64,000 bases of DNA from NCBI RefSeq assembly GCF_037975245.1, contig NC_092582.1, positions 19,494,577 to 19,558,576 of the forward strand, in the 5' to 3' direction. The position numbers and the translations under genes are program-made. Under the pieces are notes generated by a model. The model was not told the origin of the DNA and did no database searches. It saw only the letters and a program-made list of their open reading frames with translations. This document shows positions 25,982 through 33,024 of the stretch, one piece after another (the first letter of the stretch is position 1; each line of letters starts with the position of its first letter). The stretch is from Apostichopus japonicus. Lineage: Eukaryota; Echinodermata; Holothuroidea; Aspidochirotida; Stichopodidae.

Positions 25982-28328
25982 AGAAGGTCTCGAGTACGAA
26001 ACGCTCTTTTTTCATAATTGTTTTCATATTGTTCGAGATACGAAAGTATGTTACTGAAGAGGGCCCAGATGAGAGATTTCCATCATGAAAACCTCTACAA
26101 TATTTCTCCTTTATCTATTTTATCTAGGCATTCGGATCGATTGATTTCAGTAAACAAAGTCCCTGTTGAGCAGTTCTCATTTGACCTCATCCTCGAATCG
26201 ATTCGTTCTCTCTCGGTGATCGCGTTGGTAATTCTTTCGTGATTAATATATTTTTCTAAAACTTAACTCATCAACGGAACGAATTATATTTATTTCCGTA
26301 TAGCCACATTTTGTTTATTTTAGTCTTCTAATAACTAAAGAACAATTGTTGATTTCTTTGAGAACACGAAATTACTTGTCGACAGGTTCATTCGTAGGAA
26401 ATACCCAGAAAGTTGAACAATTGTAGAGATGCATAATATTCGCCACGGCCCTCGTTCTCTTGCCTGGCTACGGGCATACATGTCGACATATACCAATCAG
26501 TCATACCTTAATGCCAAACTTCATAAGTTTACGAGTATGTTACATTCAACACTTCTTTGAATATGATGTGTGTTATAGTGCTTTATGCCATTTGGAGCAG
26601 AACTATGATCGTCAAATGAAATAATTTGTCCATATTATCTCAGTGACAAATATATTATCATTGGTTAATTGTCATGACACCCAATCAAGCTTTCTCTCTC
26701 TCTCGCTCTATTTTCTTCAAGGCTGTCGAAAGAAAGGTAAATGGCAAAGTTATTCCAATTGTGGCGATCCTCGACATCGGATTCAAATCAGGTAATTCAG
26801 GTGAAACAAGATACGGCGTCTAGAAATTTTTATGAGCTCAAAACCACGATTCGACACAATGTTAGGTCTAAGTCATCAGAACGCGTCAATGAAATGTGTT
26901 TGTACAAACTAACAATTATAACTTAGGAAAAAACTTTCACCCCTGCCCACCACCCCGAAACCCCAAAAGTCTGAATTGTTACCAAAATGTACTTTCGGAT
27001 GCGATCATATATAACCATACTATTACCTTTACTCCATAAGGAACTATGGCAGGCAAATAGAGAACATAGCCCACCAACAGTATGGAACGCCGAATGTACA
27101 TTTACTTTTGTGTTCTTTACAGAGTTGGTGTTGTACAAATTGTTATACCAAAAAAAAAAGCGAAAAGCATAAAGGCTTAGATATATGAGGAGAACGTTTG
27201 CTGTTTAAGTTGTTTGATGATATCTACCACTATTTCATATTAATCGATTATATACGGTCAAAGGTAGTCAGGCTGACAAGTCTAACGCAATGTCTAAAGA
27301 CATAAAACGAAGTTAAGGTGTAGTTCACTGCCAATATGTAATTAAGCATATTCAGTGGTGTATAGTAACATGGCGTGTCGCCCAACTTCGCCCCTAATCA
27401 TAAATTAGAATATACGTATTAGTATACGTAGCTTATGAATCCAGGTAACTGAGTACACGTATGAAACCGACTGGTTTGGTTAGGGTCAAAGGCCCACAGA
27501 GGTCAAGGTCTGAAATGTTGTTAACATAGTATATACAATGTTACACCGTTAATTAATTGCATTTGATGTGTAGGTTCACGTTAGTGAGTACAAAAGTACA
27601 ACAGTTGTAAAAGGTCAAGAGTTATTTGAGGTCATCAAATGTCACGGTCTGAAAACCCTGTAAGCACGATTTTCTCCAACCGTACAAATGAGAATAACTT
27701 ATTTTTTTACACAAGAATGCCTACTATAACATGCGGTATTATTTTCTGTCAAAGTCGTGTCAAGGAATCACAATGAGCCGATCGGCTTGCTGGTTATTTT
27801 CATTAGGTTCATGAATGATATTTTATGTTCCCTATCTAGATGGTAATCACTATCTGGAGTTCGGCGGGTTTTATTGGAATTCTGATTATGCAGATATTGA
27901 ACCTTTCATCCCACTTGAGGTACCCTCTCTACGTACCTATCAGTACAGTGGAAAACAAGAGAACGTTAGGTTTGTTGTTACTGAAGGGACGGAGCAACTG
28001 TGGTTGGAAGTAGATGGTGACGATATTGAATTCACTGAGTCCAATGGTTCACTGAGTAAGTTAAAAACTCGATTCTCATTGAGTCATCAAGAGAAACTGG
28101 TTATGGTTTGAAACAGTTCACCAGGCCGGAATATCTGAGTCCGGTGCATAACTTTTGTAGGATCTATACGCTACTTCATATCGCCTACGCCATGCTTTAA
28201 TTTAAATAGAAGTGAAATGTCGTAAATGTTTAGTATGTAGACTTCCTAACCAGACCGTTGTGCGCCTCACGATTACACGATGGCTGTACTAGCCTTGTAA
28301 TAGCTTTACAGTTCTAACTGCAGCAACA
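25982..28328. repeat. Tandem-duplication copy 2 (lacks the hAT insertion)
   Basis: Matches 15659-16052 and then, without a break at GAAATTAC (26368-26375), 21237-23290. It carries the functional-looking version of the duplicated exon (27815-28055). The hAT-like element at 28345 begins just past its right edge. Confidence 0.9.
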
Positions 28329-31300: not shown

Positions 31301-33024
31301 TTAAAAAAACGTTAATATACATTTATTAAGAACCCTGAAAATATTATACATTCTTAACTTTGTTATTGTCGAAGTGAATTAACCGATACTATTTTCGTTA
31401 TCCCAGAATCACAGCACTTCAAATGTAATTTTTTGTATCTTACATAAATAGTTTTAGATTATGTACCATCTTTTACTTAAGCTTATAAATATAAACCAGC
31501 AGTGCCTGTGTCAAAGATCAAGAATTCCGATATGATAGAGATATGATAAGAGATATGATTATATCTTGAAATAATAATACCCATCAGTTTTATCAATTAA
31601 TTATAATGGACCGTTTGTTTCCTTTGATTTTGTATATATATATATATATATATATATATATATATGTATATATATATATATATATATATATATATATAAA
31701 TATATATATATATATATATAAATATATATATATATATATATATATATATATATATATATATATATACATATACAAATAAACATATATGTATATAAATGTA
31801 TATATATTGATAAATATATATATATATATATATATATATATATATATATATATATATATACACACATTTCAATTGATATGATATTGAAAAACTGATCTTG
31901 AAATTTATATATATAGCCATTTGATGAAACCGTATATACGGGAGATGAACCGATACCTGACAGTGCAAGCTTTTTGGAGTTGGTTCCGCAAGACGGCAAT
32001 GAATATAACATTGAAAGCACTGTAAATAATGGTAAGATTTGTGAAAGAACAGAACGCCATAAAGATATGATCACATTTATTTAATACAATCATTAAATTA
32101 TATTTAATAGCACAGGGAGTACTGACTATCAAGTAGAAGCACAACAGAAGGGATAGTTGGTCTAAGATCAATTGTTATGAAACGATAGTATCATTCTATC
32201 AGTTTTACATCATGCATTGTTCTTTTGGTTCGTTACCCCTTGGATGGCAACTAAAGAAAGTTTCGTGTTGTTAGTACAAAGAAATGTTCTGACCAGAGGT
32301 CGGCTGCATGATCATGGTTATCTGAGCCCTCGGCCAAAGGATTAAGGACACTGTAACAAGCACCCCCACAAGCGACGTAGCAATCAACAAAAGGGGAATT
32401 CGATATAACTCCCATCACACACAAGTACAAAAACAAACATAGACCAAGAAACACTTACGAGGTTTAGCACATTCTTTGAGTATGGATTTCAAAGATTTAT
32501 GCTTGGACGTAAACGAAAATGACATATTGAAAGTTAATAGCAATTTTATGTTTTGAAAGATTGTGAATCTTTTATTTCAGTTTACTCTTTAAGGTTTCAA
32601 ATTGATTTCAATTTACTTATCACATTAACTGCTGACAATTCTGTGAATTCTAAGACCGCCCGTTCACGAGACCGATGTAGTGTTTAAAGATAATTAACAT
32701 GACCATAATAGAAGTCTTTCTTGTTTTGTTTCTGTGCGGTTAACATGTTTATGTGCCCATATTTGGGCGATATATGTATTGTATGCATCTTTGTGTGTTT
32801 AAGTGTCATTACCTAGTTAGGCGTGAAATCTTTTGTTGTTGTTATAACAATCAGCTTATTATGTTTTCTTCCTCATGTTTTTCGCAGGTTGGTATATTAC
32901 GAATGATGACATGAAAGCCGTAATGACAACCACAGGCTCTCTGTTTTTACCATCGTATTTGGAACATCTCCCGCTGGACAAACACAAGTCACAAACTCCT
33001 CACCGGCTATGTATCTATATGTAG
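27815..33024 (+). CDS. IL-1-like beta-trefoil protein, 4 exons
   Basis: Exons 27815-28055, 31169-31296, 31917-32031 and 32888-33024 join with GT-AG borders and matching phases (1, 0, 1). They give 621 nt, 206 aa, TAG stop. No signal peptide or membrane segment is seen, which is usual for IL-1-family precursors. From about residue 80: [11 protein letters not shown], then [30 protein letters not shown] and [20 protein letters not shown]. This follows the IL-1 core order, with a strand pair ending in K(K/D)D and then the FES-x4-W-[FY]-[IL] region. The family's conserved Phe is Ile here and the Pro is Asn. Exon 1 could instead begin after the TCTAG acceptor at 27839, with an unseen upstream exon. 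Intron 1 holds the hAT-like nest and intron 2 a (TA)n tract. The exon structure is well supported; the IL-1 assignment is inference. Other beta-trefoils (FGF-like) are the main alternative. Confidence 0.55.
28648..29990. mobile_element. Second-level nested hAT-like element, perfect TSD
   Basis: It begins CATTGGCGTATGG and ends GTACGCCTATG, flanked by perfect GTTGGCAT copies (28640-28647 and 29991-29998). It lies wholly inside 28345-30491 and itself contains the third-level copy at 29200-29843. No coding frame of note. Confidence 0.8.
29200..29843. mobile_element. Third-level nested hAT-like copy, 3'-truncated
   Basis: Nearly collinear with 11820-12463 from CAAGGGCGGCGGAAGC onward, but the right terminus is lost where a short (TA)n tract begins (29843-29867). 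No right-hand copy of ATCCAGGT was found, in agreement with truncation. Confidence 0.75.
31633..31860. repeat. (TA)n microsatellite
   Basis: About 228 bases of TA with CA/TTA interruptions, in intron 2 of the IL-1-like gene, ending 56 bases before its third exon. The long Tyr-Ile frames are artefacts. Confidence 0.95.

Follow-up and report, generated by a model that had tools for sequence, protein, structure and literature searches.

Does the sea cucumber Apostichopus japonicus, a holothurian echinoderm, have a gene related to interleukin-1 (IL-1), an inflammation signal thought to be confined to vertebrates? The question is raised by a window of 64,000 nucleotides (the whole stretch of DNA analysed here, on the contig that we call C22), in which a sequence-only reading had joined four exons into a free-standing IL-1-like ligand of 206 aa. 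The cited sections of a 2022 review describe no orthologue of an IL-1 gene outside vertebrates and conclude that receptors preceded ligands (PMC9020223), and a 2021 survey by BLAST and HHsearch is cited as dating the oldest IL-1 to lampreys (PMC8226699). We found no prior report of an invertebrate IL-1 gene in the open-access literature, and an IL-1 gene was not found in the cited sections of a paper on cytokines of Holothuria leucospilota.

We consider it quite probable that the window gene encodes a PDZ domain followed by a C-terminal IL-1-like beta-trefoil, that it is homologous to the nIL-1F genes of fish, and that the homology is of IL-1 type. Because its intron pattern resembles that of interleukin-1 genes and it carries an IL-1-like domain, the signal may have an earlier origin than has been assumed.

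Structure of the gene

According to tblastn of relatives combined with splice fit, the full gene occupies 24508-33024 on the + strand and has seven coding exons encoding 311 aa, with intron phases of 2, 0, 1, 1, 0 and 1. The first three exons, each placed by tblastn and splice fit, encode the PDZ domain: exon 1 (24508..24677, +), reading from MALLRR to GGIR, contains the start codon and the first half of the domain and has a phase 2 donor, exon 2 (26128..26227, +) has a phase 0 donor, and exon 3 (26722..26791, +) completes the domain and has a phase 1 donor. Exon 4 (27840..28055, +; phases 1-1) contains a conserved linker and the start of the IL-1-like trefoil, which continues through exon 5 (31169..31296, +; 128 nt, phases 1-0) and exon 6 (31917..32031, +; phases 0-1, up to IESTVNN) into exon 7 (32888..33024, +). 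The latter begins with GWYITNDD and ends in a C-terminal tail that diverges from the paralogues after TGSLF; a possible polyadenylation signal, AATAAA, follows at 33139..33144 (+; sequence match alone).

The four exons proposed earlier correspond to the last four of this gene. Their GT-AG borders (28055/31169, 31296/31917 and 32031/32888), consistent phase and 206-aa length held up, as did the absence of a hydrophobic signal peptide, which we judged by eye on the window protein. The proposed start codon, by contrast, is intronic: the exon begins at the acceptor CTATCTAG|ATGG (27839/27840), with 27840 as its first base, and MIFYVPYL is therefore not protein. Rather than a ligand standing on its own, the 206 aa form the C-terminal portion of a fusion with a PDZ domain, and three coding exons lie upstream.

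Proteins of A. japonicus match the originally proposed exons at up to 99% identity in protein searches. The annotated NCBI model of this same gene, P0008, lacks exon 4 (27840-28055); its residues 1-57 are 100% identical to the translation of exon 1 (tblastn), the first 113 residues of the 311-aa window protein are identical to it, and its last 45 residues are likewise 100% identical to the window (tblastn). The translation of exon 4 is 92% identical to residues 114-186 of another protein, P0001. Splice sites agree among the copies on C22 at the end of exon 4 (5 of 5 loci), at the ends of exon 5 (three distinct genes) and at the ends of exon 6 (four, the window gene included), while the exon 1 splice pattern had zero matches among these copies and is thus uninformative. 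By eye from the printed sequence, a paralogue on contig C4 shows all six intron phases and the same exon order, and one on C10 agrees at all introns apart from those flanking exon 3, an exon that was not located there. The exon order and splice phases of the window gene are more than chance, as they recur in these C4 and C10 paralogues. A long (TA)n tract, at about 31630-31860, ends just 5′ of the exon 6 acceptor, and there is another TA-rich stretch near 23540-23770.

A family of paralogues in A. japonicus

Protein searches recovered 15 related proteins, 14 of them from A. japonicus and one, P0014, from elsewhere in the database; none from beyond A. japonicus had a known organism. P0014 (289 aa) lies on a contig of 1,997 bases and shares about 50% identity across the entire protein; its intact frame on so short a contig would fit a spliced transcript, with an intronless copy as the alternative. 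When the genome (671.6 Mb, 35 contigs) was searched with the first exon, matches over most of its length numbered at least seven on C22, at least one on C4 and at least seven on C10, with one further partial match, so that about 15 first-exon copies of the gene, a lower bound, are spread over three chromosomes. The C10 paralogue is about 37% identical to the window gene over the trefoil part. Contamination by fish DNA was ruled out, as the family clusters on chromosome-scale contigs.

Some models required care. P0007 joins two copies and was excluded from later alignments, P0013 was used in alignment A3 alone, and P0015 and P0008 were omitted from A4-A6. In the public model P0009 the coding sequence continues past a donor into the intron; farther downstream, in L046 (L045-L046), there is an intact last exon (GWYITKDG...GSLFKI).

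The N-terminal PDZ domain

The N-terminus of the window protein is a PDZ domain (PF00595, 28.8 bits against a cut-off of 23.2), the sole above-threshold Pfam domain in proteins of the family, and the best 60 of 120 matches in a profile search of PDB sequences were nearly all PDZ. In matching PDZ profiles it resembles DLG4/PSD-95 and other PDZ proteins, from which it differs in that the GLGF loop reads LSAF (by eye) and in that the protein has a C-terminal trefoil-like domain and lacks other scaffold domains. Vertebrate IL-1beta has a prodomain where the sea cucumber protein has its PDZ domain, with no detectable sequence likeness between the two: the PDZ part and linker scored 10.0 against human and mouse IL-1beta prodomains, which was equalled or beaten by 73 of 100 shuffles.

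Similarity of the C-terminal domain to IL-1

Searches at the sequence level did not reach the thresholds for IL-1. A Pfam scan of the 206-aa protein returned zero families, and the window protein had no Pfam IL1 match. Against the Pfam IL1 family (PF00340), whose cut-off of 25 bits is a detection threshold and not a biological trait, the best score was 14.6 bits (E 0.026) in one of nine proteins, with no match in further sets of four and two proteins. Sub-threshold IL1 matches occurred in 1 of 11 trefoils (E 0.0051) and in 1 of 13 (E 0.0077), where a beta-galactosidase domain matched as well as IL1 did (E 0.007). P0005 is the sole family member with a Pfam IL1 match, which is sub-threshold, and is also the best single scorer in the profile-profile comparison below. 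Searches of PDB sequences with phmmer and with profiles found no IL-1 chain, in the PDZ-dominated search among the best 60 of 120 matches; chance-level matches numbered two for the 206-aa protein, three for the first trefoil profile and none for the enlarged one. A search of the A. japonicus genome with the Pfam IL1 family found nothing, and control genomes were equally silent.

The comparison of profiles gave a different picture. With hhalign, 13 family trefoils scored 32.9 against nine human IL-1s, with a single-pair E of 1.4e-4 that would not be significant for a search of a whole library of Pfam size. The alignment covers 118 columns (19-140 of 170) in the IL-1 register and takes in most of a beta-trefoil; the last part is uncovered because the alignment stops at WYI. 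None of 300 column shuffles reached this score (mean 12.5, SD 2.2, maximum 20.7), and adding chicken IL-1beta to the IL-1 profile raised it to 34.9. The reversed profile scored 18.9 against IL-1, the PDZ part scored 17.4, above the shuffle mean, and human and mouse IL1B alone scored 16.6 against the full-length family. As a yardstick, single accepted members compared with the other eight IL-1s scored 17.5 (IL-33), 44.1 (IL-1alpha) and 47.2 (IL-18).

Single sequences of the family were also compared with IL-1. The window sequence alone scored 25.1 and the C10 paralogue alone 28.1, both in register. Nine of the 13 members scored 22.5-32.0 on their own, eight of these being close paralogues and the independent one being the C10 paralogue, whereas the remaining four (P0010, P0011, P0012 and P0014) gave no signal against IL-1 (11.7-13.8).

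Fibroblast growth factors (FGFs), likewise a beta-trefoil family, are the obvious alternative for the sea cucumber domain, and a better match to them had been named in the sequence-only reading as evidence that would tell against IL-1. No such match was seen in the profile comparison with controls: a profile of seven FGFs scored 10.6, which 245 of 300 shuffles equalled or exceeded, and FGF identity (PF00167) was rejected. Compared with the family one by one, the seven FGFs, hisactophilin, fascin domain 1 and soybean trypsin inhibitor scored 10.6-14.0. Of the sequences used, the nine IL-1s and FGF1 were verified by Pfam. In the profile check suggested with the original claim, the Pfam cut-off was missed, while the family-level profile comparison with controls supports a relation to IL-1.

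The motif on which the original claim relied was described there with FES-x4-W spacing. The IL-1 signature is in fact FES-x5-W, and it is x5 that the window protein has. From F142 to I166 of the 206-aa protein, the sequence aligns without gaps to the F-x12-FES-x5-W[YF][IL] of IL1B, IL1RN and IL36RN (Pfam-verified sequences), so that all share the spacing F-x12-[FI]ES-x5-W[YF][IL]; F, E, S and W coincide, and I replaces F before ES. The stricter PROSITE IL-1 signature presumably does not match the window protein. Compared with the FES-PG-WF motif given for the IL-1 family in the cited section (PMC12108812), the spacing is kept, with F replaced by I, P by N and F by Y.

Comparison with vertebrate IL-1beta and fish nIL-1F

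Judging from the lengths of human IL1B exons, the two trefoil introns of that gene are offset by about two residues from those of the sea cucumber gene when the hhalign register is applied. The cited part of a turtle study gives the IL-1beta intron phases as II, 0, I, I, 0, describes the last three (1, 1, 0) as typical, and assigns the twelve strands to the three final exons (PMC4880838). The sea cucumber phases follow this published order, 2,0,1,1,0, plus one extra phase-1 intron, located after exon 6, that is missing from the published string; under assumed phase frequencies, these five phases would occur in this order by chance with a probability of about 0.005. In the published arrangement the last trefoil exon of IL-1beta has no intron, which differs from the sea cucumber gene. 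Exon lengths compare as follows: the middle trefoil exon is 128 nt in the window and 131 nt in the C10 paralogue, against the 137 nt reported for pacu IL-1beta, and the preceding exon is 216 nt in the window against 168 nt in pacu (PMC7687281, in the section cited). The likeness to vertebrate IL-1beta, as far as these published descriptions extend, thus consists of the ordered intron phases, a trefoil encoded in the last exons, FES-x5-W spacing and profile similarity.

The combination of PDZ and IL-1 domains is itself already known, from fish nIL-1F. In the cited description, lumpfish nIL-1F is a protein of 352 aa (311 aa in the sea cucumber) that combines an IL-1 domain with a PDZ domain and is encoded by seven coding exons with six introns, and the nIL-1F clade takes in ghost shark and coelacanth (PMC7144542). 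The likeness to our gene is in having IL-1-type and PDZ domains in one protein and in the seven coding exons and six introns, and, as in the sea cucumber protein, no signal peptide is reported in the cited parts of the two nIL-1F studies (PMC7144542, PMC4929537). Caspase-1 and thrombin sites are predicted in lumpfish nIL-1F, and in these accounts nIL-1F is known solely from bony, cartilaginous and lobe-finned fish. We infer orthology with nIL-1F from architecture and exon number, nIL-1F being compared by its published description.

Alternative explanations

The profile comparison, motif spacing, intron phases and PDZ plus IL-1 architecture support a relation to IL-1 but do not prove it. A rather unlikely alternative is that the C-terminal domain belongs to a different lineage of beta-trefoil, or of another beta-rich fold, that became fused to a PDZ domain in sea cucumbers and resembles IL-1 only by fold or convergence. 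Such a domain would be consistent with sequence matches to IL-1 that never reach threshold, with the differences in strict motif residues, with the scores above the shuffle mean that the reversed profile and the PDZ part also obtain against IL-1, and with a published argument that trefoils arise repeatedly (PMC5861070, in the part cited). It does not readily account for an IL-1-specific signal unaccompanied by an FGF signal, for five intron phases that follow the published order of IL-1beta, or for the same PDZ plus IL-1 architecture and seven coding exons in nIL-1F as described. Less probable still, in our estimation, is that the gene encodes a PDZ scaffold protein with a non-trefoil C-terminal part that resembles IL-1 by chance. 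While PDZ is indeed the only domain above threshold, chance did not produce the IL-1 score in any of the shuffles, and a paralogue of only 37% identity gives the same register by itself. The idea of an IL-1 relation in an invertebrate thus stands on the controlled profile comparison, the spacing, the phases and the nIL-1F-type architecture, as published, and falls short at the sequence-level thresholds.

A separate matter, compatible with the PDZ-IL-1 reading, is whether the window copy is a decaying paralogue, whatever its family; we find this possible but lean against it. Beyond TGSLF the window continues with LPSYLEH..., where the alignment shows that intact paralogues (P0005 and P0001 being examples of intact copies) end in KIE or KIESGA. 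A small insertion appears to have shifted the frame, and the resulting tail would replace the last trefoil strand. With its last residues out of frame compared with the paralogues, the window copy may be impaired. Decay would also fit the skipping of exon 4 in P0008 and a dN/dS of 0.93 against the C4 paralogue, calculated from few sites. On the other hand, the frame is otherwise open across seven exons with intact splice sites, and dN/dS is 0.39 against the distant C10 paralogue, with the caveat that dS is saturated at 1.5.

Possible function and implications

Under the PDZ-IL-1 reading, we infer a cytokine action. The protein would be a cytosolic precursor without a signal peptide, held or anchored by its PDZ part, and cell damage or cleavage would release the trefoil to Ig-TIR (IL-1R-like) receptors on coelomocytes. 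The trefoil might activate these receptors or block them, as reported for fish nIL-1F, and the receptor signal would feed into the IRAK pathway. An antagonist may be favoured over an agonist because of the nIL-1F precedent: the last 169 residues of trout nIL-1F are reported, in the section cited, to inhibit IL-1beta-induced gene expression (PMC4929537). Both IRAK-1 and lytic coelomocyte death via MLKL have been reported in A. japonicus (PMC4519775, PMC11932488).

We detected 13 TIR matches in the A. japonicus genome. Seven lie on C9 within 23.38-23.80 Mb, most of them in long open frames like those of intronless Toll-like receptors, which this cluster probably represents. Two loci on C10 have split TIR domains. 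At L048 (31.1 bits, cut-off 21.3) an Ig-like exon lies upstream (I-set, 21.4 bits, slightly below the cut-off of 23.7), and a second suspected Ig exon matches no Ig family; at L049 (28.4 bits) a hydrophobic stretch was seen upstream by eye. We count both in favour of the PDZ-IL-1 reading, as candidate IL-1R-like genes and no more; against it, the human IL1RAPL1 TIR domain found nothing in the genome at E 0.01.

A family in an echinoderm with the intron phases of IL-1beta and the architecture of nIL-1F would push the origin of the ligand back to early deuterostomes, would supply a ligand for invertebrate IL-1R-like receptors and would hint at the origin of the IL-1 prodomain. Our tentative scenario, which we rate somewhat short of an even chance, is that IL-1 ligands predate vertebrates, that their ancestral form, a PDZ-trefoil protein, existed before the echinoderm/chordate split and was kept in fish as nIL-1F, and that the PDZ exons gave rise to those of the vertebrate IL-1beta prodomain, with phases 2,0,1 kept and the sequence no longer recognisable. 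If this is true, invertebrate IL-1R-like receptors had ligands all along.

A partial copy upstream and other features of the window

A partial copy of the gene lies upstream, with tblastn matches to PDZ exon 2 (15728..15910, +; with an internal stop codon), exon 3 (21595..21669, +) and exon 4 (22820..23020, +) and no matches to exons 1, 5, 6 or 7 beside them. It reflects a partial segmental duplication (15739-23282 versus 26062-28327) of exons 2, 3 and 4 with their introns, in blocks 82-99% identical. Inside the partial copy, at 16382-18700 (-), an open frame of 772 aa, which contains DUF4371 together with a hAT dimerisation region, corresponds to a hAT-type transposase and occupies the GC-richest stretch of the window. 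Other open frames lie at 59624-60766 (+; 380 aa) and 41389-42132 (-; 247 aa).
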